Positions 35,081 through 63,600 of a DNA stretch of 64,000 bases are shown here, piece by piece; within the stretch, counting starts at the first letter, position 1, and every line of letters starts with the position of its first letter. The notes below the pieces were generated by a model that saw only the letters and a list, made by a program, of their open reading frames with translations, was not told the origin of the DNA and ran no database searches. Source of the stretch: an uncultured Clostridia bacterium (lineage in GTDB: Bacteria; Bacillota; Clostridia; Christensenellales; UBA1242). The stretch spans positions 21,928 to 85,927 of the forward strand of contig CALWTD010000032.1 of assembly GCA_944384395.1 (NCBI GenBank), in the 5' to 3' direction. Made by a program: the position numbers and the translations under genes.

Positions 35081-35380
35081 ACCAATATAATAATATAAAG
35101 AGATAATTTATATTTCACTTGTACAATACATTTTTAAGTTAAAGTAGCAATAAAAATGAGATATTTCTTTATCTCACCTATAAATATTATTCTAGTTTAA
35201 ATTACTTAACAGAACCGATTTGTTTGATTATAAAAATTCATACAAAACTAATTAAAATATTTTATTTTGTTTTAAGGTTTAATTTTTTTTGCATAAACAA
35301 AGTATTATTACGTTTTTATGTAGAGCGATAAAAGTTTTTAACCTATAAAAAAACAAACAAGTTAATGCTTTATAACAAAA

Positions 35381-35508
35381 AAACTTACAAAAAACAAGCA
35401 AGACAAGGCTCGGAAAATGAGCACACGCAGGAGTGTATTTTGTACATGACTGTGTGTGCTCGTTTCACAGTAAACGAAGTACTATGAAGTTTTATATAAA
35501 TTTTAAGG
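35381..35508 (+). repeat. Structured repeat element, copy A
   Basis: This and the next entry are near-identical units offset by 172 nt. A 12-bp stem, GAGCACACGCAG (35419-35430) with CTGTGTGTGCTC (35450-35461), contains one G.U position and encloses GAGTGTA-TTTTG-TACATGA. It is preceded by ACAAGGCTC and followed by GTTT-N6-AAAC. The same core with different but still complementary stems occurs three times near 62.5-63.3 kb. Around it, 35081-35380 holds no recognisable gene. Confidence 0.75.
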
Positions 35509-35549
35509 TTTTAACTAATAAAAAAACAAACAAGTTAATGCTTTATAAC

Positions 35550-35678
35550 AAAAAACTTACAAAAAACAAGCAAGACAAGGCTCGGAAAATGAGCACACGC
35601 AGGAGTGTACTTTGTACATGACTGTGTGTGCTCGTTTTACAGTAAACGAAGTATTGCGCCGTTTTTTGTAAGTTTTTT
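35550..35678 (+). repeat. Structured repeat element, copy B
   Basis: Core stem GAGCACACGCAG (35591-35602) pairs with CTGTGTGTGCTC (35622-35633). This copy also has a clear closing inverted repeat: AAAAACTTACAAAAAAC at 35551-35567 and GTTTTTTGTAAGTTTTT at 35661-35677. The right arm touches the stop of the HD-domain gene. The whole unit could fold as a closed multi-branch structure. Confidence 0.75.
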
Positions 35679-41698: not shown

Positions 41699-43669
41699 AT
41701 GAAAAAATTAAAAAATTCAATAATAGCACTAGTAGTTTTGTATGTTGTTGGTGTTATTGCATCTATGATTATAAACAAAGTTGATTTTGTTTCAGCATTA
41801 TCAGACACAATAACCTTAATAGTTCTTGGTTTAGGAATTTTAGGTATTCTTCTTTATGTTGCCTCAACAAACAAAACTTGGGTTGATGACAAAGACGGTT
41901 TTACAGGAAAAACACAAAGTGGTCAAAATATGAGTCAACACTATGAAGCGAGGTTTGTTACCGAACAAGAACTTTTAACAAATCCTGCTTTTATGCCAAC
42001 AACATGGCGACAACTCCCAAAACTTAAAAAAACCGGCGTAATGATTAGAAGCCTATACAAAAATGGTCAAATGCACATAAATATGTATAACCCTATTCAC
42101 ACACTGATTATAGGTACAACAGGTTCTGGTAAAACTACTTTTGTTTTAGACCCAGCAATAAGAGTTTATGCACATTCGGCAGAAAAACCTTGTATGGTTA
42201 TTACCGACCCAAAAGGCGAACTTTATAACAATCATTCTATTCAACTTAGAGAAGAAGGATATAGATTAATTACGATAGATTTAAGAAATCCATACGCTTC
42301 AACAAGATGGAATCCAATGGAACATTCGTTTAACATGTACACCCGTGCTCATCACCTAGAAGAAGAAGTAAAAGTTTATAAAGGTGCAAGTCCAAAAGAA
42401 GTTGGTGGTTATAAAATTATATCTGACAAATATGGTGAACAATGGTATGGGTTTAATAAAATTGCGTATCCCGACAAAGAAAAACTCATGCAAGACCTAG
42501 AAGCAAAAAAACAATCACTTATAAACGAAGCAGAAAATGAACTTCGTGAAATATGCAGTACAATTGTCACAATTGAAAGTAAAACCGACCAAGGTTGGGA
42601 GCGTGGTGCACAAGACTTTTTGTATGGTCTTATGCTTGCTATGCTTGAAGACAGTTTAAACCCAGAACTTGGAATGACAAGAGAAAAATTCAATTTTTAT
42701 AACCTTGTAAAAATTGCAACATACAGAGACACAGATGGCGATAACATGATGAAAACGCTTCAACAGTACACAACAGGAAGAGGCGACTTTTCAAAAGTTC
42801 CTGCCCTAACCAGCACCGTTGTCAACAATGCACCAAACACAACACGAAGTTATTTGGGTGTATTGCAACCAAAAATAGCAATATTTCAAGATATGGGTAT
42901 TTGCTACTGTACTAGTGGAACAGATGTAAACTTTGAAGACTTTGTAGACCAACCAACAGTGCTATTTATTAAAGTTCCCGACGAAAAAGAAAGCAGACAC
43001 AGCATTGCAACAATGTGTATATCTCAAATGTATAAAACTTTGATTGATGTTGCTTCTCAAAGACCAAATTTGCAACTTCCAAGACCTGTTTACTTCCTTC
43101 TTGATGAATTTGCAAACTTACCAAAAATTGAAAAGATGGACACAATTATCACGGTTGCCCGTTCAAGAAGAATTTTCTTTGAACTTGCAATTCAATCTTA
43201 TAGCCAACTTGACAACAAATATACAAAAGAAGTTGCTGATACAATTAAAGGTAACTGTAATATTCAAATATTTATTGGAACGGAAGACCAAAAAACAAGA
43301 GAAGAATTTTCTAAAATGTGTGGTGAAGTTACTTTAAAAACAAAAAATGTTTCACAAAATCAATCAGAGAGAAATGATAAAGAAAGCACAAAAACAATTG
43401 GAAGTCAAATTGTTACAAGACCACTCATAGAACCATATGAACTAGGACAACTTCCATATGATGTAAATATTGTAAAAATTTATGGTCAACCACCAATAAA
43501 AACAAAAATGACACAATACTTTAAAAATCCTGTGCTTGACCAAAGAAAAGCAGCCGAAGAATATGTGCCAAGCAAACACCTTGATGAAAGAAAAATATTT
43601 TATGATATTAAATTAAGAAATTCAAAAGTATTTAAACGAAGTAGTATTTTAGACGATTTTGATTTTTAA
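41699..43669 (+). CDS. virD4: VirD4/TraG-family coupling ATPase
   Basis: The 656-residue protein has two N-terminal membrane segments (about residues 5-25 and 36-55) and a TraG/VirD4 motor domain. Walker A is GTTGSGKT (139-146); TDPKGELY follows; and the Walker B region is VYFLLDEFANLPK (about residues 462-475). The helical all-alpha insert lies between them. Coupling proteins feed substrates into type IV secretion channels. No relaxase or VirB4 ATPase gene is in this window, so the substrate may be protein rather than DNA. It is divergent from the pilin gene and followed by a terminator. Confidence 0.92.
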   Translation: MKKLKNSIIALVVLYVVGVIASMIINKVDFVSALSDTITLIVLGLGILGILLYVASTNKTWVDDKDGFTGKTQSGQNMSQHYEARFVTEQELLTNPAFMPTTWRQLPKLKKTGVMIRSLYKNGQMHINMYNPIHTLIIGTTGSGKTTFVLDPAIRVYAHSAEKPCMVITDPKGELYNNHSIQLREEGYRLITIDLRNPYASTRWNPMEHSFNMYTRAHHLEEEVKVYKGASPKEVGGYKIISDKYGEQWYGFNKIAYPDKEKLMQDLEAKKQSLINEAENELREICSTIVTIESKTDQGWERGAQDFLYGLMLAMLEDSLNPELGMTREKFNFYNLVKIATYRDTDGDNMMKTLQQYTTGRGDFSKVPALTSTVVNNAPNTTRSYLGVLQPKIAIFQDMGICYCTSGTDVNFEDFVDQPTVLFIKVPDEKESRHSIATMCISQMYKTLIDVASQRPNLQLPRPVYFLLDEFANLPKIEKMDTIITVARSRRIFFELAIQSYSQLDNKYTKEVADTIKGNCNIQIFIGTEDQKTREEFSKMCGEVTLKTKNVSQNQSERNDKESTKTIGSQIVTRPLIEPYELGQLPYDVNIVKIYGQPPIKTKMTQYFKNPVLDQRKAAEEYVPSKHLDERKIFYDIKLRNSKVFKRSSILDDFDF

Positions 43670-43685
43670 TTTTAATAAAAATATT

Positions 43686-43712
43686 AAATCCCTTTTTAAA
43701 AGGGATTTTTTA
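43686..43712 (+). terminator. Terminator after the VirD4-like gene
   Basis: The hairpin AAATCCCTTTTTAAAAGGGATTT is followed by a T-run, 16 nt after the stop. Confidence 0.8.
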
Positions 43713-43772
43713 ATTTTTTTTTATTATTTAAATAATAATAAAATAATTATTAAATAAATATACACAATATAT

Positions 43773-43800
43773 TTGTCAAAAAGACTAAAAATATGATAAT
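43773..43800 (+). promoter_or_regulatory. Promoter of the 2,522-residue surface protein
   Basis: TTGTCA (43773-43778), 16 nt and GATAAT (43795-43800) lie just upstream. The ATG at 43793 would fall inside this promoter, which supports the start at 43829. Confidence 0.5.
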
Positions 43801-43828
43801 ATTTTTAATGAATTGTAGAGGTGTTTTT

Positions 43829-46800
43829 ATGAAAAAAAAATATTTAATAAATTTATTATTTAGTTTTTTTGTTTTTTCATTATCTTTTTGTGGTATTTAT
43901 TTTTTTAATAATTCACAAAATAAAATCATTTATGGTGCTGGTGAAATTCCAGAATATTTTTCGGTTATTCAATATCAAAATGACGGAACAACTCCTATTA
44001 GCAAAATAGATAATAATGGAGTTGCTTATGTTTTACCAACTCATAGTGTAGAGGCAAAATTACAAATTGATTCCGGCTCATCACCAAACCCAATTAAGCA
44101 TATATCCCCTTATTTTACACTTAATGGACAATCATATGATAATAGTGAATTAAGTCAAGTGTACGGAATAAATATTTCTTATTCAACAGTTTCCTTCACA
44201 CTAAACGCATCATTTACAGGAACACAAAGTCCTTGTGGTAAATATGATTTAACAATAAATTACATAATAAATGAAAATGGTGTTGACCAAACAAAAACTT
44301 TTACATTTACATTTTATGTAGTTTTAGACACAAATTATTATAATGGTCAAACAGTGAACACTTCTATTGCAAACGCAAATAAAGTAAATTCTTCTCTTTA
44401 TGATAGAGCATATCAATACCAATATCAATATCAAAACGATGATAGTATAACAACAAATCAAGTACCTTATTTAACATTCAACAAAACTAATATAAATTTA
44501 CAGATTACAAAAACTTTTCAAAAAACAACTCAAACTCAAAATATTACATATAATGGAATTGAACTTGTTAGCGATAACAACATCGTTACAGTTGTTGAAA
44601 GCGATAACAATGTTGTTACTATATACTTTAATGATTTGGGATTTTATTCAATTAAATACAATTTTATTTATGTTTATAATCAAAATGTTGATGCCATAAC
44701 ACCAAAACCCTCATCAATATCTCAAGCCAAACTTTTGGATTGTATAGATATTTTTGGATACCAAGCATATTATTCAGATGTGAATAGTGGTACAACCCAA
44801 GAATTTAAAAGTTATGAAAATGGACAAATCGGCGATGAATATAGTGATATAACCTATCTGTCAGGTAATAATTATAACCAAACATTAAATCGTACCGAAA
44901 CAAAAGTCCTACAAAGTTTATTAAATCAAATAAATAGTGGAACAATTTTAATACCATCAACAAATCAAGCTCCTGTTCAATTTAAATATAATGTTGAAAT
45001 CTTTAATGAAGACAACAGCACAATTTCTGATACACAAAGTGGTTATTATATGCTCACAAAAAATGCCGAAGGCTACGTTACAGGAACAAAACAAAATTAC
45101 GATAATAGTCCACTCACCCAAAGCGGTGTATATTTATTAAAATTAGTTTATAAAAATAACTCAAACATTCCAGGTTTTTCAGATGATGGTTTTCAAACAT
45201 CAAATATCAATGAAACAGAAACAGAATTTTTAAGATGTCAATGGTTTATTTTTGAAATAAGCAAAGAAACTGAACAATTATCCATTGTATCAAAAGATGA
45301 AACATCATCACAAATTCTTGATGGTGCATATACAAATAAAGATGTTGAAATTTCAAAATTTAACACAAATTCACTTAAATCGTCAATATTTAATGCTAAA
45401 ACAAAACTAATTGTGTATAAACAAACAAACTACACAGGAATGTACTCTGAAGTTGCAACAATATTAAATCAAGAAACATACACAGCAACTGACAACGGAA
45501 ACTATATAGCAACATTATATTTTGGAAAAAATTACAGCAGAAGTTATTCATCAACATTTACAATAGATAAACAATCAATAGAAAATATTCAGATTTTTGC
45601 TGTCAATGCACAATCAAACTCTACTTATTATACAAGAAACAAGCAAATTGAATTTTTAACCAACCAACCCGTTATAATTTCTTGGAATGAAAAAAATAGT
45701 GGGAGCGAAACATTTGCAGAGTATAAATATATTCCAATAGTTGCAAATCACACAAATTCCTTTTCGTCTGCCACACTTAAAGAATATTATAGTTATGGTT
45801 GTGTACCTACCGACTACTATTTTGATTATGACAATTCATCGCTAGCAACTGTTAATTATTTAAATGCACAAAGTTATAACTATATTCCATCATCAAATAT
45901 ATTATCACAAAGTGGAATGTATATATTTAGAATATACGACAGTGCTGGAAATGAAAAATACTTTGCATTTATAATTGACACAACAAATGCGCAAATTTTA
46001 CAACAAATAAATGAAGAATTTGTTGAAGTTAGTGAATTAAACATCATTTCACAAGATGCAACAATTGTTTGGGGTGAATATAAAGTAATAAAATTTAACA
46101 ATCTCACATATGACAGTTCTAGTGCTCAATTTAATTGCGGTGATGAATGGTTAAATTTAATATTAAACACACAAGACATATATAACAACTATTTTACAAA
46201 TATGTCAATAAATACAAAAAATACATATTTTACAAAAATACAAATATCTCAAAACGTATTAAAATCTTCAAACGGTATTAACCAAATTATTAATGGCAAA
46301 GAAGATACAATAGAATTTTTAACACAATCAAATGGTCAAACTCTTGCAGTTGAAAAAGATTATAATTATTACATAATAGACCAGGCAAATACAAAGGTAA
46401 ACTACCAAAATCCAACAATAGAAGATTACACTAAAAACTATTCTGGAACGCACGATGTAAGAATATCATCAGATGCTTCAAGGACATTGCTTTTATATGA
46501 AAACACAAAACGCCTTGAACTGGACGCTTACTCCCCTGACCCACACGATAGCACAAAAGAACAATACTTTATTCCAACAACAATAAAAACACTTGCAAAT
46601 AGCAATGAAATATTAACATTACAATTTAATCCAACACCAGATGATGGAGTTGTTGAAGTTGAAAGTATAACCTATACTTTTAGTCCATTTATTGCACAAG
46701 AAAAAGTAAATCCTTCAACTGGTATTGTTTCTGCGTATTCATATATTTTTGGAGAAACATCAAATCCAATCACTATATATTCAAGAACAAATACAGCAGA

Positions 46801-49800
46801 AAACAAAAATCTAATTTTAAATAATGACGGCTCTTATTCTTGGGAAATAAACAAAGAATATGTTTATAATGGAAGTTCATATGTAAATCAAACTCAGGCA
46901 GGAAGGTACACCATTACCAGAACATATGCAAATTTATCACAAACACAAGCACAAGTTGACAAAACATATGACTTTATGACAAGAACTTTCACATTTATTG
47001 TGGATAGAAATGGAATAATTTCTTCTCCAACAGTTGTTGACGAAGAAGGTTCAACTTATAGTTATATTGGGGAATCTATTAAAATACAAGTTCTTGAAGA
47101 AGAAAACAATAAAATGTTCTTTAAAGACATTTACCTTGCAAACAATTCACAAGCACAAAACACACCAATCCTTACAACAAATAAACTTCCAGTATTTGTT
47201 TACATACCTGTTGTAAAATATGGATATTCATATACAGATGGTGGAACGTTTAACAAAGAAAACTCAATAAACTACTATAATTATGACCCTAACAATATTA
47301 GTCAAACTAACGCTTCTCAGATATCAACATATGCTCTTAAAGCACAAATAAAATTTAGTACTGAACTTTCAACCATAGACAACGCAACAACAGTATATAA
47401 TAGTGTTGACCCAGAAATATCAAGCAATCGTGGATATTTAAGATTTTCAGACGACCCAAATACTTCTGGTATCTCATTCACACAAATTGGATATTATAAA
47501 GTTATAATCACTCAGGGTTACACAAAATATGGCGAAAATACAATAAGTTTTATTTTTGAAATAACAGAACAAGAACCATCTTTCAGTATTGTTGATCCTG
47601 TGAATAATGAAGAACTTCAAAAAGATACAGCCACAAATACATATTATACAAATAAAGATACAATAAGACTCTCATGGACAGACTCTACAAATGATTTTAT
47701 GGCAAAAATCAATCAAGAAGAAATAACTTACACAATAAACAATTCCAGTGAACAAAAAATTGATGTAGATTCAATTCAAACCGAAGGCAAAACTCATTAT
47801 GTTGATTTAAATTTAAAAGAACTAAAAGCATACAATCACAACACAATAATAACAGTTAATATGCAATTTGAAGGCAAAGAAACTGATTATAATGTGGGTA
47901 AATTTAAAACATCAAGAACAGTTATTATAGACACAACAGCACCACAAGCTAATATAAACAAATTGGTAGCGTTAAGTGGAATAGGTCCTAACCTACTAAG
48001 AAATGTTCAGTTAAAATATAACACATCTGTTGCAAGTGGATTATATAAATATTTTGCGTACGCAGTTGATGTAAACAATATAAATAACATAATTGATTTC
48101 ACATCTCATGAAGATGGCGAAGCATACACAATAATGTATAGATTGTTTAGAACACAAGGCGAAGATGGTAAATTGATTTCAACAAAATATAACGAAATAT
48201 ATTCACAAGAAACAATGCCAAGTATTGTGGAAAATTCTAATAGCAACTTTGAAATAATTAATGATTTCACACTAAATGAAATGTTAAGTCAAGACAACTA
48301 TAATAGTTATATAGAAATTGTTGAAAAAGACCTTGCAGGAAACATCACAATCTATACAATATATTTAACTAATATCAGTGCCATGGAACAAACTTCCTCC
48401 CTTCCTATTGAATATATTAGCAACGGCTCACAAAAATCACTTACATATAGTCAATTAAATTCAACAACAAATATCAATGCGAAAAGCGATTTAACATTAA
48501 CAAATGTAAATATGTTCAATTTTGATTGGAATCAAATAACATTAAACGGCACAACATATTTAAAAACTCCATATTCAAATTCAAACTACTATAACCTATC
48601 AACTTACGATGTTAATAATCCTTCAAAAAGTGAAACAATTCTTTCAGATTTTGCAAATTTAAAATCAAGTACTAAAAAACAAAACATAGTTATTTCATTA
48701 GTTCCATATTACAACAATATAACATTATCGTGTTCAATTTTAAATACTTCTTTGTCAGTAATACACACTGGCGAAACTTCTAGTTATACAAACGAAGAAG
48801 GAGTTTTAATCAAAATACCTTCTTCCTCAAACGAACAAGACGCAACAATTTATGCTACAAGTGTTGTAATAACTGAATATGTAAAAACAAATGACATATA
48901 TAGTGAAAACATAATTTACAATATAACAGACGATAATTACTTTAAAACAACTGGAAGCGAACTTATAAATAATAGTATTATTTCATCCAATTATGTAAAT
49001 TATCTCGGAAATACATATATTAAAATAAATGTTAAATCCCCTGTTAAAGATAGATTTTATAGATATACAATCATTGACAATTTCCAAGACAAATATGCAA
49101 AAACAAATATATATGGCGCAGAAACAATTGAAAACGAAATATCAAGCGAAGTTAAATTAGTTGAAAATTATGAAAATGGCGAATTATATTATTATTCAAC
49201 AAAAGAGATAAGATACCAGTACAATGATAAAAAAGATAAACTAATCTTAAATGTAACAACGTCATTAACATCTTATAAATATGACTTATCCTTACAAAAA
49301 GATAGAGAAAGACTAAGAACCGATGGTATTGGCAATGTACTTGAACCTGTTTCAGGTAGTTCAATTTATACTCTTGTTCTATATGCTCCAAAACAAGACA
49401 TGGCAGAAGGATTAATTGGTGGAGAAATTAGATTTAATATTGAACTATATGAAGCAATAATGAATGTTTTAGATAACCCATACAAAACAGTGAATTTGGT
49501 TATTTACAACATTATTCCAAACATAACACTTCTTGGGATTGAAAATGAATCGCAAAATGATTTATTTAACAAAGGAACAATGTATGGAAATGAAATAAAA
49601 ATCACATTTAATCAAAATACGGGAAGAATTCCTTGCCTTGTATATCTTGAATACGAAGACGGAACAGTTGAGCAAATAACTTCTGGTAAAATTGTTAAAG
49701 AGCCTGCAACCTATTCTATCTTAATAAAATATACAAACATATTTACAGATAATCAGTACGACACATACCTTGACTTTACTATTGTTGACAACGACCAGGA

Positions 49801-51397
49801 ATTTTATCAAGTTGTATATAAAAATGGCAATGACTATGTATATGCAAAAGACACAGGAAATGCATTTTCATACACAGAAGGAAATTACACACATTATGTA
49901 ACAAAACATTACATTTTAAACACAAGTGAATTTGAAATTTTGTTTAACACCGAACAAGGAATACAAGTTTCAAAACCAAGTATTGTTACCACAAACGGTT
50001 ACACAACATACATTTATGAAATAAGCAATTTAACCAGCGAAAATGTTACCAAATACTATAAAACGATAGCCATAACAGTTATTCCACAAAGCACAAGCAT
50101 TCTTGCAAATTACTCACATTACACAAACGAAGGTACTCGTCAAGATTTAACTGGAACGCTAATTACCTTTGCAGTTAGCACAGAAGAAAACAATGCTTCA
50201 ACAAAAACAATTTCATGGAAATCGTATTATGGAATAAAAGAAAACTTGGTTACAGTAAGCATAAAATACAACGACAATGCAACATCATATATTCCAAAAC
50301 TAAGAACGGAAAACGATATGACCTACTTAACATTGTCAACATCGGGAACTTATTATTTAACATTTAGCGATCTTGCAGGAAATGTACATATGTTCGACTC
50401 ATCGCTTAGCACTTATACAATTAGATATTTAAGAAGTGTTATATATACAGTAAATGGAGAATCGCCAATAAATAATGCAGTATATAATGACAAAGTGGAA
50501 ATCAATATTCCAACATCAACAAAAAAATACTATGACACAAATGCACAACCACAAATTCATGTACTAAGAAACGGTGAAGAATACACACCAAGTGTAAACA
50601 GCGAAAATAATTCATATGTATTTGAGCAAACTGGACTTTATAAAGTATGGTTTAGAGCATCAATAACAATTTCAGGCACAGTGACGCAAATAAATGAAGA
50701 ACCTTTATACTTCTTAATTATAAAACCAAAAGAATCGAGATACGCTTTTGAATTTTCTGAATATGCTGATTACTATGTTAAACAAATAATAAAAAACAAT
50801 GAAGATGTAACTAGTATTTTAACAAATGAAAATATGGGAAAACTCACAAACAAAACAATAATAAATGAAAATGGCACTACCGAAACTAAAACATATCTTA
50901 AAAATTTCTTAATAAGCGTCAACGATGCAATAACAGGAAACGGAATGTACACAGTTACAATTTGTACAGATAACGAGTTTAATCAAGAATTTACTTTTAG
51001 TTTCTGGATAAACAACACTACTCCACCTATTTTAGTGTCAATACCTGAAAATACATCAACAACAAGCAATATAACCGTTTCATTTAACACAACAGATCTC
51101 ATTGAAGATGTTGGAGATTGCATACTTAAAATATCTGGCAATGCAGATTTACTTCTAACTGAGCAGTTATTACAAGATGGAAGTCTACAATCTTCATATA
51201 ACATAACACTATCATCTGCAAGAACATACTTTGTTCAATTATACTCCGAAAGTGGCAAACTTTTATACTCATATAGAGTTGTAAAAAATGAACCACTAAA
51301 CACAGTTTCAATAATATTGATTGTTGTATCTTGTTTAGTAGTGATTGGACTTACTGTTATGTTCATACTACTAAGAAAGAAAATGAAAGTAAGATAA
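43829..51397 (+). CDS. Giant cell-surface protein with Ig-like repeats and C-terminal membrane anchor
   Basis: The protein has 2,522 residues. A signal peptide (about residues 4-25) is followed by a very long beta-strand-rich ectodomain with repeated Ig-like units, marked by recurring patterns such as 'YxFxIDTTxAxI', 'GxYxFRIYDSAGN' and 'SGTYYLTFSDLAGN', typical of bacterial Ig-like modules. A single membrane segment near the end, 'VSIILIVVSCLVVIGLTVMFILL', precedes a short basic tail, so the protein is membrane-anchored with its bulk outside. The ATG at 43829 is chosen for its AGAGGTG ribosome site. It stands behind VirD4 with its own promoter and terminator. A link to the T4SS-like locus is suggested by position only. 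Confidence 0.9.
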   Translation: MKKKYLINLLFSFFVFSLSFCGIYFFNNSQNKIIYGAGEIPEYFSVIQYQNDGTTPISKIDNNGVAYVLPTHSVEAKLQIDSGSSPNPIKHISPYFTLNGQSYDNSELSQVYGINISYSTVSFTLNASFTGTQSPCGKYDLTINYIINENGVDQTKTFTFTFYVVLDTNYYNGQTVNTSIANANKVNSSLYDRAYQYQYQYQNDDSITTNQVPYLTFNKTNINLQITKTFQKTTQTQNITYNGIELVSDNNIVTVVESDNNVVTIYFNDLGFYSIKYNFIYVYNQNVDAITPKPSSISQAKLLDCIDIFGYQAYYSDVNSGTTQEFKSYENGQIGDEYSDITYLSGNNYNQTLNRTETKVLQSLLNQINSGTILIPSTNQAPVQFKYNVEIFNEDNSTISDTQSGYYMLTKNAEGYVTGTKQNYDNSPLTQSGVYLLKLVYKNNSNIPGFSDDGFQTSNINETETEFLRCQWFIFEISKETEQLSIVSKDETSSQILDGAYTNKDVEISKFNTNSLKSSIFNAKTKLIVYKQTNYTGMYSEVATILNQETYTATDNGNYIATLYFGKNYSRSYSSTFTIDKQSIENIQIFAVNAQSNSTYYTRNKQIEFLTNQPVIISWNEKNSGSETFAEYKYIPIVANHTNSFSSATLKEYYSYGCVPTDYYFDYDNSSLATVNYLNAQSYNYIPSSNILSQSGMYIFRIYDSAGNEKYFAFIIDTTNAQILQQINEEFVEVSELNIISQDATIVWGEYKVIKFNNLTYDSSSAQFNCGDEWLNLILNTQDIYNNYFTNMSINTKNTYFTKIQISQNVLKSSNGINQIINGKEDTIEFLTQSNGQTLAVEKDYNYYIIDQANTKVNYQNPTIEDYTKNYSGTHDVRISSDASRTLLLYENTKRLELDAYSPDPHDSTKEQYFIPTTIKTLANSNEILTLQFNPTPDDGVVEVESITYTFSPFIAQEKVNPSTGIVSAYSYIFGETSNPITIYSRTNTAENKNLILNNDGSYSWEINKEYVYNGSSYVNQTQAGRYTITRTYANLSQTQAQVDKTYDFMTRTFTFIVDRNGIISSPTVVDEEGSTYSYIGESIKIQVLEEENNKMFFKDIYLANNSQAQNTPILTTNKLPVFVYIPVVKYGYSYTDGGTFNKENSINYYNYDPNNISQTNASQISTYALKAQIKFSTELSTIDNATTVYNSVDPEISSNRGYLRFSDDPNTSGISFTQIGYYKVIITQGYTKYGENTISFIFEITEQEPSFSIVDPVNNEELQKDTATNTYYTNKDTIRLSWTDSTNDFMAKINQEEITYTINNSSEQKIDVDSIQTEGKTHYVDLNLKELKAYNHNTIITVNMQFEGKETDYNVGKFKTSRTVIIDTTAPQANINKLVALSGIGPNLLRNVQLKYNTSVASGLYKYFAYAVDVNNINNIIDFTSHEDGEAYTIMYRLFRTQGEDGKLISTKYNEIYSQETMPSIVENSNSNFEIINDFTLNEMLSQDNYNSYIEIVEKDLAGNITIYTIYLTNISAMEQTSSLPIEYISNGSQKSLTYSQLNSTTNINAKSDLTLTNVNMFNFDWNQITLNGTTYLKTPYSNSNYYNLSTYDVNNPSKSETILSDFANLKSSTKKQNIVISLVPYYNNITLSCSILNTSLSVIHTGETSSYTNEEGVLIKIPSSSNEQDATIYATSVVITEYVKTNDIYSENIIYNITDDNYFKTTGSELINNSIISSNYVNYLGNTYIKINVKSPVKDRFYRYTIIDNFQDKYAKTNIYGAETIENEISSEVKLVENYENGELYYYSTKEIRYQYNDKKDKLILNVTTSLTSYKYDLSLQKDRERLRTDGIGNVLEPVSGSSIYTLVLYAPKQDMAEGLIGGEIRFNIELYEAIMNVLDNPYKTVNLVIYNIIPNITLLGIENESQNDLFNKGTMYGNEIKITFNQNTGRIPCLVYLEYEDGTVEQITSGKIVKEPATYSILIKYTNIFTDNQYDTYLDFTIVDNDQEFYQVVYKNGNDYVYAKDTGNAFSYTEGNYTHYVTKHYILNTSEFEILFNTEQGIQVSKPSIVTTNGYTTYIYEISNLTSENVTKYYKTIAITVIPQSTSILANYSHYTNEGTRQDLTGTLITFAVSTEENNASTKTISWKSYYGIKENLVTVSIKYNDNATSYIPKLRTENDMTYLTLSTSGTYYLTFSDLAGNVHMFDSSLSTYTIRYLRSVIYTVNGESPINNAVYNDKVEINIPTSTKKYYDTNAQPQIHVLRNGEEYTPSVNSENNSYVFEQTGLYKVWFRASITISGTVTQINEEPLYFLIIKPKESRYAFEFSEYADYYVKQIIKNNEDVTSILTNENMGKLTNKTIINENGTTETKTYLKNFLISVNDAITGNGMYTVTICTDNEFNQEFTFSFWINNTTPPILVSIPENTSTTSNITVSFNTTDLIEDVGDCILKISGNADLLLTEQLLQDGSLQSSYNITLSSARTYFVQLYSESGKLLYSYRVVKNEPLNTVSIILIVVSCLVVIGLTVMFILLRKKMKVR

Positions 51398-56961: not shown

Positions 56962-56986
56962 AAAACTAGCAAAAAATGCTAGTTTT
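56962..56986 (-). terminator. Terminator after the zinc-ribbon gene
   Basis: The hairpin AAAACTAGCA-TTTTT-TGCTAGTTTT (minus strand) abuts the stop at 56989 and is followed by a T-rich tract. Confidence 0.75.
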
Positions 56987-56988
56987 TA

Positions 56989-57507
56989 TTAGTCGTCATC
57001 TTCGTCATCATCATCGTCTTCGTTGTCATCGTCATCGTCATAATCATCATCGTCAATGTCGTCAATGTCGTCTAAATCGTCAAGGTCGTCATCTTCGTCT
57101 TCATCTTCGTCTTCGTCTTCGTCGTCTAAATCAGTTTCATCACTAAAAACAATGTCATCATCATCAAGATCCGAATCTAAATCATCGTCATCCTTAATAG
57201 ATGCGTCCCCAACTTCGTCGTCTTGTGTGTCGAAATCGTCAACTTCATCACGATTTACATAATTTACCCAATCATCGCTATCTTTATCAATACTTTCAGG
57301 ATCAATATTTCTTTCTTCCATGCATTGTGAGCACATTATTTCATCGGGTCCGATATAATTTGTTTTACAAATTGGGCAGAGTTCCAATTCTTCATTTTCT
57401 CCACCACCAACTTGCATTTCTGCCTTACATACACTGCAGTATTTATCTTTTTTTAAAATATAATTTAATTCACATCTTGGACATCTTATATATTGTTGTT
57501 TTGCCAT
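56989..57507 (-). CDS. Zinc-ribbon protein with poly-acidic tail
   Basis: The 172-residue protein starts with two CxxC zinc-ribbon units: IRCPRCELNY with YCSVCKAE, and LCPICKTNY with MCSQCMEE. It then continues as a long Asp/Glu tail (about residues 95-172), almost only D and E. The acidic tail recalls the delta subunit of RNA polymerase in composition, but the N-terminal domain is different. It may bind basic or nucleic-acid-binding partners. The ATG at 57507 has a GAGGTAAAA ribosome site; a longer frame to 57555 is unlikely. No function can be assigned. Confidence 0.8.
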   Translation of the reverse strand: MAKQQYIRCPRCELNYILKKDKYCSVCKAEMQVGGGENEELELCPICKTNYIGPDEIMCSQCMEERNIDPESIDKDSDDWVNYVNRDEVDDFDTQDDEVGDASIKDDDDLDSDLDDDDIVFSDETDLDDEDEDEDEDEDDDLDDLDDIDDIDDDDYDDDDDNEDDDDDEDDD

Positions 57508-57653
57508 TTTTACCTCTTGTTTTAAATTCCCCCTTATTATATGTATAAAGAACATATATGTCTACTAATTTTAACAAATATTTTTAATATTTTTTTGCCT
57601 TGTTTTTTTTATGTAATTTAAAATATTTTATGCAAAAAATTACAATATGACAC

Positions 57654-62070: not shown

Positions 62071-62525
62071 TATATAGTTTTTTTAACAAATTAAATTAAG
62101 TTTTATTTTCAATTTAAACATATATCATAAAATAATATAAAAGATTGTATTTTAGAATTCTGTGAGCAAAACTATTAAGAAAGAAAATAAAATTTTACAT
62201 TTATTATTTCTATTTATCAATTTAAACCGTAATATTAGATAATAAATACATTATTTTACAATAATTTACCATACAAATAAAACAATATTTAAGACTAGAA
62301 ATAATTAGTAAAATATAATTGGCAGTTAAAAACAAACTATTTGACTATATGCGACGATGTAACAGGACATTGCTATTTTTGTTAAAAAATAACACATATG
62401 CGTTTGCATATGTGTAAGAAAACATAAAAAAGACCAATTCTATACTTAATTTCTATAATTATATTAATTTGGGCAATGACTATATTACATTCTCATAATT
62501 TAATAATTAAAACCTTTTTGAATTT

Positions 62526-62648
62526 CAACTTAAAAATAAACTCAATAACAAGGCTCTTTAAATACTCACTCGTAGGAGTGTAGACACCTACATGACTATG
62601 AGTGAGTGTTTAAAAGTAAACACAGTTAGTGAGATTTAATTTTAAGTT
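62526..62648 (+). repeat. Structured repeat element, array copy 1
   Basis: Closing arms are CAACTTAAAAATAAACTCA (62526-62544) and TGAGATTTAATTTTAAGTT (62630-62648). Inside, ACAAGGCTC precedes a 12-bp stem, ACTCACTCGTAG (62564-62575) with CTATGAGTGAGT (62596-62607), around GAGTGTA-GACACC-TACATGA. GTTT-N6-AAAC follows. The core equals that of the copies near 35.4-35.6 kb while the stems differ. Confidence 0.8.
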
Positions 62649-62844
62649 AAAATATGGACTATTTGACTATATGCGACCGACATAACAGGACATTGCTATT
62701 TTTGTTAAAAATAACACATATGCCCTTGCATATGTGTAAGAAAACAAAAAAAACAATTCTATGATTAATTTTTATAATTCTATTTATTCTGGCAATGACC
62801 ATATTACATTCTTATAATTTAATAATTAAAACCTTTTTGAATTT

Positions 62845-62968
62845 CAACTTAAAAGTAAACTCAATAACAAGGCTCTTTAAATACTCACTCGTAGGAGTGT
62901 AGACACCTACATGACTATGAGTGAGTGTTTAAAAGTAAACACAGTTAGTGAGATTTATTTTTAAGTTG
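62845..62968 (+). repeat. Structured repeat element, array copy 2
   Basis: Same structure as array copy 1, with identical core stem ACTCACTCGTAG/CTATGAGTGAGT and closing arms CAACTTAAAAGTAAACTCA and TGAGATTTATTTTTAAGTTG. Confidence 0.8.
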
Positions 62969-63162
62969 AAACAAGGACTATTTGACTATATGCGACGATG
63001 TAACAGGACATTGCTATTTTTGTTAAAAAATAACACATATGCAAACGCATATGTGTAAGAAAACAAAAAAACCAATTCTATGATTAATTTTTATAATTCT
63101 ATTTATTTTGGCAATGACCATATTACATTCTTATAATTTAATAATTAAAACCTTTTTGAATG

Positions 63163-63289
63163 TCAACTTAAAAGTAAACTCAATAACAAGGCTCTTTAAA
63201 TACTCACTCGTAGGAGTGTAGACACCTACATGACTATGAGTGAGTGTTTAAAAGTAAACACAGTTAGTGAGATTTAATTTTAAGTTGAA
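63163..63289 (+). repeat. Structured repeat element, array copy 3
   Basis: Same structure as the previous copy; closing arms are CAACTTAAAAGTAAACTCA and TGAGATTTAATTTTAAGTTG. The fourth and fifth array units lack this element. Confidence 0.8.
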
Positions 63290-63574
63290 ACAAGGACTAT
63301 TTGACTATATGAGACGATGCAACAGGACATTGCTATTTTTTTACAAAAAAAATAACACATATGCAAATGCATATGTGTAAGAAAACAAAAAAAAGACCAA
63401 TTCTATACTTAATTTCTATAATTATATTAATTTGGGCAATGACCATATTACGAGGAGCAGAGTGTCAAGCAGTCCGAAAGACTATTTGACTATATGCGAC
63501 GATGTAACAGGACATTGCTATTTTTGTTAAAAAATAACACATATGCAAACGCATATGTGTAAGAAAACAAAAAA

Positions 63575-63600
63575 AAGACAATCCGAAGATTGTCTTATTT
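63575..63600 (-). terminator. rRNA operon terminator
   Basis: On the minus strand AAGACAATC-TTCG-GATTGTCTT is followed by a run of T. The very stable UUCG loop and the position just after 5S rRNA fit a ribosomal terminator. Confidence 0.9.

Follow-up and report, generated by a model that had tools for sequence, protein, structure and literature searches.

REP and REPIN sequences are palindromic and intergenic and are believed to move as a folded strand with RAYT transposases. Integron attC sites are recognised by structure as a folded single strand, and their stem sequence is free. ERIC repeats (IRU, RU-1) are a standard typing target. In the passages of the papers cited here, ERIC was described in 1990-91 (references in PMC2229807), its host range is given as Enterobacteriaceae and Vibrionaceae (PMC10969869), and it is present in E. 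coli, Y. pestis and V. cholerae (PMC2267715; a further passage cited alongside these papers is PMC5896051). The same excerpts state that ERIC in Yersinia changes mRNA stability (PMC10969869, PMC2229807) and that insertion produces a TA duplication (PMC2759123). The mechanism is described there as not elucidated (PMC2759123), and the way in which such elements move as yet without experimental support (PMC2229807). The ERIC1 and ERIC2 primers cover a tip of the form GGAG-stem-loop-stem-TGAC (PMC2947995). RUP, Correia/NEMIS and YPAL are listed as bacterial MITEs in the passage used (PMC2229807). Here, a stretch of 64,000 nucleotides from an uncultured Clostridia bacterium (the window) was analysed for a repeated hairpin with the same tip. 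Its copies are probably a non-autonomous mobile hairpin of an ERIC-like superfamily that spans several bacterial phyla.

Hairpin copies in the window

In the window, the motif GGAGTGTA-N5/6-TACATGAC starts at 35430, 35602, 62575, 62894 and 63213, five sites in all and each on the plus strand. As a control, 100 shuffles contained no occurrence. The tandem spacing is 172 bp for the pair at 35 kb and 319 bp for the set at 62-63 kb. Five copies in two places had been reported in a preliminary description of this DNA, and this count and the tandem layout were confirmed. Each hairpin type forms one long hairpin (z -9.25 at 35 kb and -8.78 at 62-63 kb), and none of 200 shuffles folded as well.

Copy 1 extends from 35378 to 35506 on the plus strand (ends approximate). 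It is a direct repeat with copy 2 (repeat D5, 35378-35504), and its 3' outer arm diverges from the 5' arm. Copy 2 folds with complete outer arms over 35550-35678 on the plus strand. By motif search, the tip was located at 35430-35450 in copy 1 (GGAG-TGTA..TACA-TGAC) and at 35602-35622 in copy 2 (GGAG-TGTAC..GTACA-TGAC), both on the plus strand. The lower internal loop has ACAAGGCTC on its 5' side (35403-35411 in copy 1, 35575-35583 in copy 2) and CAGTAAACGAAG on its 3' side (35468-35479 and 35640-35651), again on the plus strand. Folding placed copy 3 at 62522-62653; copies 4 and 5 lie at 62841-62972 and 63160-63291, with ends taken from the 319-bp period of repeat D1 (all plus strand). The shared ACAAGGCTC, the two different but paired 12-bp stems and the outer inverted repeats that had been described are all visible in the window sequence. 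A GTTT-N6-AAAC segment, also described as shared, is present in the window copies, but other copies of the own genome (L030, L031) lack it and only the letters CAG(T)AAAC..AG are left.

Further features were observed in the window. Downstream of a 5S gene, at 62332-63575, the three hairpin elements alternate with a second repeat, present as five units of about 99 bp with GACTATTTGACTATATGCGACGATGTAACAGGACATTGC. It contains a ACACATATG..CATATGTGT hairpin whose loop letters vary from copy to copy. Positions 41699-51397 span a gene for a type IV secretion coupling protein (PF02534) and then a reading frame of 2534 aa, for which no Pfam match was found at E 0.001. A run of GTC/ATC-type triplets at 56983-57166 overlaps a minus-strand ORF (56989-57555), whose predicted product across the run should be acidic.

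Covariation and spread of the family

Two covariance models were built from 28 rows (R1) and 33 rows (R2), none of which came from the own genome or from Enterobacterales-titled records. Four rows of R2 are from host-unassigned viral contigs (L005, L010, L014, L019), and a Clostridia row may share the window's genus. Both models found all five window copies, at 35.5-39.3 bits with R1 and 39.6-44.9 bits with R2. The R2 matches cover 35408-35472 (copy 1, 39.6 bits), 35580-35644 (copy 2, 44.9 bits) and, at 42.5 bits each, 62553-62618, 62872-62937 and 63191-63256 (copies 3 to 5). R2 also matched the ERIC copy L155 of E. coli 120899. Its score of 31.5 bits is below those of the window copies (E 1.7e-7 in 65 kb; after a short calibration these E-values are rough). 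L155 was absent from the matches of R1 searched at E 1.

Covariation was scored in two alignments against shuffles that ignore kinship. The score was 0.293 in A1 (0.118 shuffled) and 0.418 in A2 (0.154 shuffled), and none of 500 shuffles reached either value. In A2, both sides had changed in 172 cells, compared with 71 after shuffling (0 of 500 shuffles). As a control, the partner was slid by 1-3 columns in A2, and the score fell to 0.184 or less. Other measures were unexceptional, namely the pairs changed in A1 (267 of 500 shuffles) and the pair types in A2 (106 of 500). The innermost stem also covaries (TGTA, CGTA, CATA, TTTA), and CGTAC, TTTAC, CATAC and CGATG are found as paired inner-stem variants. 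That a fold is maintained, as had been proposed, is supported, and the suggested covariance-model search of related genomes found many covarying copies.

The own genome (G000) is a draft of 1.04 Mb in 37 contigs, 86% complete. It holds the exact core 11 times, with none for the reversed core as a control, and 15 (R1) or 16 (R2) copies by model. Copies were present in all 17 genomes sampled from the own genus (2-28 each), in 6 of 19 from other genera of the family and in 8 of 24 from other families of the order, which gives 31 of 60 with the genus included. Wider samples contained few carriers, 9 of 299 genomes in the own phylum (own genome counted) and 9 of 296 in Bacteroidota (centre genome counted). 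Thus the family distribution is patchy but deep. Relatives were found in Pseudomonadota, Bacteroidota, Clostridia, Desulfobacterota, Campylobacterota and Lentisphaerae. When genome contigs were searched for the exact core, at least 114 stretches were returned. Among the matches listed, these came from Gamma- and Alphaproteobacteria, Bacteroidales, Vicingaceae, Clostridia and Desulfobacterales, and further from Sulfurospirillum, Lentisphaerae, Seleniivibrio, Bdellovibrionia and others. An archaeal record with the core (L153) has almost no arms. All 48 core-holding genomes had model matches, 1-62 each with R1. With R2, copy numbers were 95 in Regiella, 84 in Vicingaceae (G020), 65 in Lentisphaerae (G035), 26 in Barnesiella (G022) and 23 in Fukatsuia.

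The genome and viral scans demanded the exact 16-base core, and therefore core conservation in the collected set arises partly by construction. The hairpins could then be unrelated and alike because the search pattern picked their tips. In line with this, nine viral core matches, which were excluded from the models, have 0-9 of 45 bases paired (L001, L008, L012, L013, L015, L018, L026, L027, L028). However, the arms were outside the pattern. Arm pairing was measured, among the matches listed, in 130 distinct core matches with full flanks from the own genome and from viral and genome contigs. In 111 of the 130, 20 or more of the 45 upstream bases had a partner across the core, a level that 49 of 260 shuffled flanks also reach; 30 or more had one in 86 of the 130, compared with 8 of 260. 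The arms themselves have almost no letters in common. A looser scan for GGAG-paired stem-TGAC, in loci preselected by the core, gave 186 matches against 7 on reversed sequence, and 108 against 1 when at least 9 paired arm bases were required. Besides ERIC, the models also detect inner stems of other sequence, and the AGGC/AACG and GA/GA enrichments described below are also outside the pattern. The idea of unrelated hairpins is thus largely refuted already and appears very improbable.

Five viral contigs carried an R2 match above 34 bits (L005, L010, L014, L019, L029). BLAST of the window element against phage and plasmid records returned no relative. Two further viral contigs (L006, L025) contain a near-perfect hairpin, TTGACAAACA.CCTCTTGGAG..TACATGAC..CAAGAGGTTTGTTGTCAA, in a shifted register (L025 scored 21.1 bits with R2); this hairpin could represent either an operator or a distant relative.

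The conserved tip and the folded strand

Pairing was analysed in 82 rows, of which five are from the own genome (two window copies and L030-L032). The set was obtained from 90 rows by removing L002, L003, L006, L007, L009, L025, L147 and L089 by hand. All eight had passed the arm filter of at least 20 bases, and L002 (24.2 bits) and L025 later matched R2, so the removal was a matter of judgement.

The tip is built, in order, of a G-C pair, G.A and A.G, G.T and a five-pair stem. GGAG and TGAC are invariant in both alignments, in part because of how the set was selected, and AGAG or GGAA tips are present in some copies. The G-A opposite G-A noticed earlier was confirmed at the tip, where, judged from the letters, the pairs would adopt a sheared geometry. 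Positions -2/-3 and +2/+3 were both Watson-Crick or wobble in 22 of 82 rows (5.7 shuffled) and GA/GA in 21 (11.0 shuffled). Half-paired states were rarer than after shuffling (12 against 31.4), and 27 rows showed other states. A single G.U pair at position 9 (-3/+3 from the core) had been described as kept; it is found in the window, but the pair is G.A in many other lineages and G.U there is therefore not a family trait. About 20-25 nt from the tip, AGGC was found in 31 of 82 5' flanks (7.9 shuffled) and AACG in 27 of 82 3' flanks (9.6 shuffled). Thus the AGGC/AACG internal loop is common, not universal. What the copies have in common is the GGAG[stem]TGAC tip with its tandem G.A, frequently accompanied by AAGG/AACG at a distance of about 20-25 nt; the other stem letters are free but paired.

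Copy 2 was folded on both strands. The plus strand was the more stable one both as RNA (-60.1; minus strand -53.6) and as DNA (-36.5; minus strand -30.0). The minus strand also folds far better than its own shuffles (z -9.54, RNA), yet less stably than the plus strand. The plus strand was the better folder as RNA in 79 of the 82 rows, in agreement with the strand favoured in the preliminary description. Beyond position 3, the arms of the 82 rows hold 425 mismatches. A.G was observed 217 times (103 expected), C.T 9 (43), A.A 57 (50), T.T 4 (16), G.G 14 (52), C.C 3 (31), G.T 60 (56) and A.C 61 (74). With a wobble-favouring aligner, G.T rose to 66 and A.C to 70. The purine-purine excess on one strand points to the plus strand as the folded one.

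The hairpin could work in transcripts as a structured RNA, for instance as a 3' UTR stability element, an RNase site or a terminator, with mobility being secondary. The folds are very stable, the window copies adjoin gene ends, and an ATG, by eye a putative gene start, soon follows at least 7 of 20 copies in G035 and 3 of 5 in G022. The reported effect of ERIC on mRNA stability in Yersinia would also agree with such a role. An RNA helix should, however, show G.U well above A.C. This was the case in tRNA acceptor stems at the same loci (36 against 4, where the tRNA finding itself favours G.U), and it was not seen in the arms. A plus-strand DNA hairpin therefore fits better than a non-coding RNA. 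Old copies that decay neutrally would also give G.T equal to A.C, so the counts oppose RNA-level selection on the arms and are not proof of a DNA mechanism.

Neither transcript strand was clearly preferred in the gene context. By the stricter gene caller, 27 copies were codirectional with opposite orientation and 16 with the same orientation, which is not significant (p 0.13); 14 were convergent, 6 divergent, 9 inside genes, 14 at an edge and 9 far. The looser caller gave 33 opposite, 15 same, 18 convergent, 5 divergent, 17 inside, 13 edge and 6 far. The orientation bias suggested by these latter counts was dropped, as it was insignificant with the stricter caller. In the window, Rfam searches at the gathering score returned only rRNA and tRNA, without a match to the element; in 18 related loci, a SAM riboswitch was the sole addition to these two classes. 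A permissive search (371 bases, E up to 10) gave sub-gathering matches only. The earlier remark that the element was not recognised as a known RNA class agrees with the absence of an Rfam family. Taken together, a function as structured RNA is unlikely, and of the two alternatives offered before, a non-coding RNA or a mobile hairpin element, it is the second that fits.

Ends, mobility and comparison with known systems

Copy number differs between sister species. At the locus orthologous to the 35.4-kb array (97% identity over 1526 bases), G348 has three units and the window two. The middle unit of G348 keeps the outer unit, and its inner hairpin is swapped (TTTA..TAAA tip). Beside the same right-hand gene in G359 and G357, no array was found in the 400 bp inspected, and the left neighbour differs. 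Arrays of the own genome end in a complete 3'-most copy, preceded by several copies that are 5' halves and stop at the tip loop. Such arrays are seen at L030, L031 and L035 (contigs 12, 13 and 23), with upstream copies as if cut or copied to the hairpin tip. In the G033 arrays, the terminal 3' arm is absent except in the last unit.

The own-genome copies have terminal inverted repeats only, and no target duplication was readable. Together with the other multi-copy sets, they show the terminal inverted repeats and the many copies that the MITE definition asks for. In Regiella and Fukatsuia the copies end in TATACCC/GGGTATA, and repeat and duplication are indistinguishable there. In G020, 10 of the 12 readable copies were flanked by TANTTA at both ends, three of them non-palindromic (7 of 9 by script; L399, L403 and L270 by eye). 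Five G020 copies have an end other than the palindromic TAATTA, and a match was seen for L408, L409 and L270 but not for L401 or L402. TNA ends matched in 6 of 10 copies in Paramuribaculum (G041), in 2 of 4 in Prevotellaceae (G009) and in 1 of 4 readable copies in Barnesiella. One further Barnesiella copy was unreadable, and the other three readable ones have TAA/TTA, as if the inverted repeat ran on. Overall, 3-bp ends matched in 9 of 18 copies; these counts omit a double-strand count of L266 (G009) and a false 256-bp pairing in L052. With 9 of 18 matches and three of five informative G020 copies, short target duplications in some lineages are suggestive only.

In Lentisphaerae (G035), the hairpin sits off-centre in elements of about 270 bp that end in TGTCTCA..TGAGACA. 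Four elements chosen for a shorter end-to-end distance (L438-L441) have the same ends without the hairpin, and two of them share one junction. Hence the hairpin is not needed for spread there. A separate mobile unit bracketed by GCAA inside these elements was considered and rejected, since a slip deletion between GCAA repeats explains L439 and L440 equally. At L441, L389 and L445, the hairpin site either holds another small unit (CTTGTC..GGCGTAG..), borders on it or is split by it; several small elements are thus nested in the same Lentisphaerae MITE. In contig 16 of G041, two hairpin elements adjoin in opposite orientation (L254), with differing ends and inner stems (GGAGCGATG, GGAGTGTAG). 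A transposon with matching ends was found neither in the draft genome G041 nor among the 100 listed of 204 end matches in the draft G035. Same-end candidates in G041 were discarded as other hairpin families or as matches without a recognisable transposase. The ERIC site between ybhJ and ybhI of E. coli was uninformative as an empty-site test, as 5273 of 5426 genomes hold most of it.

The hairpins might be ordinary MITEs in which the tip is a transposase binding site and the arms are complementary only through palindrome-templated DNA correction and gene conversion. In favour of this, G.T and A.C are equally frequent, as under neutral decay, a whole inner hairpin is exchanged in G348, and 5' half copies that stop at the loop occur in arrays. 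Correction would, however, erase G.A, yet GA/GA was above and the half-paired state below the shuffled level, and a single transposase implies conserved ends, whereas the terminal repeats differ by lineage. This explanation is hence improbable.

What was observed is a shared tip, an often-shared loop, free-but-paired arms, a change in copy number between sister species and lineage-specific ends. The variation in end sets, G035 included, shows that the tip is not tied to one set of transposon ends. Terminal repeats vary by lineage and are accompanied in some by apparent target duplications, so that transposon-like elements with unlike ends carry one and the same hairpin; examples of such ends are TATACCC, GAGATTGTC, GTGATGGTG, TTAGAGTTTGTCC and TGTCTCA. 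For a mobile hairpin of an ERIC-like superfamily, we propose that copies would be moved in trans by a transposase fitting the ends of each lineage. The tip would be kept because the plus strand, once single-stranded, forms a hairpin that a binding partner common among bacteria recognises, and gene conversion may explain why copies have swapped their whole inner hairpins (G000 compared with G348). More tentatively, the hairpin may be a plus-strand DNA module that crosses phyla with a tandem G.A near its tip, rides unrelated MITEs and is kept through a protein shared by many bacteria that binds the folded single strand; we consider this possible but not the likelier case. If such an independent module were real, ERIC would represent the one branch already known in 1990, and the question of ERIC movement and upkeep would turn into a search for a tip-binding protein.

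A multi-phylum superfamily provides scores of diverged sequences that reveal what is conserved, and it shows ends and tip evolving separately. Genomes with near-identical copies in high number (the Paramuribaculum, Vicingaceae and Lentisphaerae records) are places to seek the mobilising enzyme, and mismatch types may separate DNA-level from RNA-level constraint.

Among known systems, REP and REPIN sequences share with the window hairpin its palindromic and intergenic character, and a folded strand with a free stem sequence makes the hairpin comparable, by analogy, to integron attC sites. The window hairpin is several times longer than REPs, which are 20-40 bp with GTAG or CGTC at one end (PMC3733652), and its conserved letters are at the tip; by eye, no shared GTAG or CGTC tag was seen at the feet of the inspected copies. 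BoxC triplex repeats were set aside, as the motif in the passage cited is a different one (PMC4666352). MITEs are likewise small, palindromic and multi-copy, with terminal inverted repeats and, in some lineages here, apparent short duplications. In contrast to MITEs, it is the internal tip that is kept across phyla and not the ends, and no parent transposon was found in G041 or among the listed G035 matches.

The closest likeness is to ERIC, a single long imperfect hairpin of about 127-150 bp that is intergenic and multi-copy. Its GGAG[stem]TGAC tip, seen in the ERIC1/ERIC2 primers, in L155 and by R2, is also that of the window copies. L155 is laid out as GGAAGGCG, GGAG-CTTAC..GTAAG-TGAC and AAACGCAG. 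The AAGGCG/AACGCAG loop of ERIC, GGAAGGCG with AAACGCAG in L155, is matched in part by AAGGCTCG with AAACGAAG in the window. The term undescribed element is therefore unsupported in its strict sense, because the tip and, in part, the flanking loop are those already known in ERIC, although the observation behind it is real and extends further than was described. Relative to ERIC, the window copies have another host phylum, other arms and ends and another inner stem (TGTA; CTTAC in ERIC), and they occur in tandem arrays with 5' half copies. ERIC has TATACTC-like ends and a TA duplication, whereas the window and own-genome copies end in other repeats; the TATACCC/GGGTATA ends of Regiella and Fukatsuia resemble those of ERIC. 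A 44-base ERIC centre matched 283 plasmid records, and all ten named genera were enterobacterial. The window family is not confined to Enterobacteriaceae and Vibrionaceae, the hosts given for ERIC in the passage cited above. As neither these ends nor this host range apply, the copies belong to an ERIC-like superfamily and not to ERIC in the strict sense. ERIC-like elements outside Gammaproteobacteria were unreported in the titles and abstract openings searched, so that any claim to priority is provisional. In summary, the window element is ordinary in kind, a MITE-like repeat, and unusual in reach. Its relatives in several phyla suggest that ERIC forms a single local branch within a larger family that is poorly understood.
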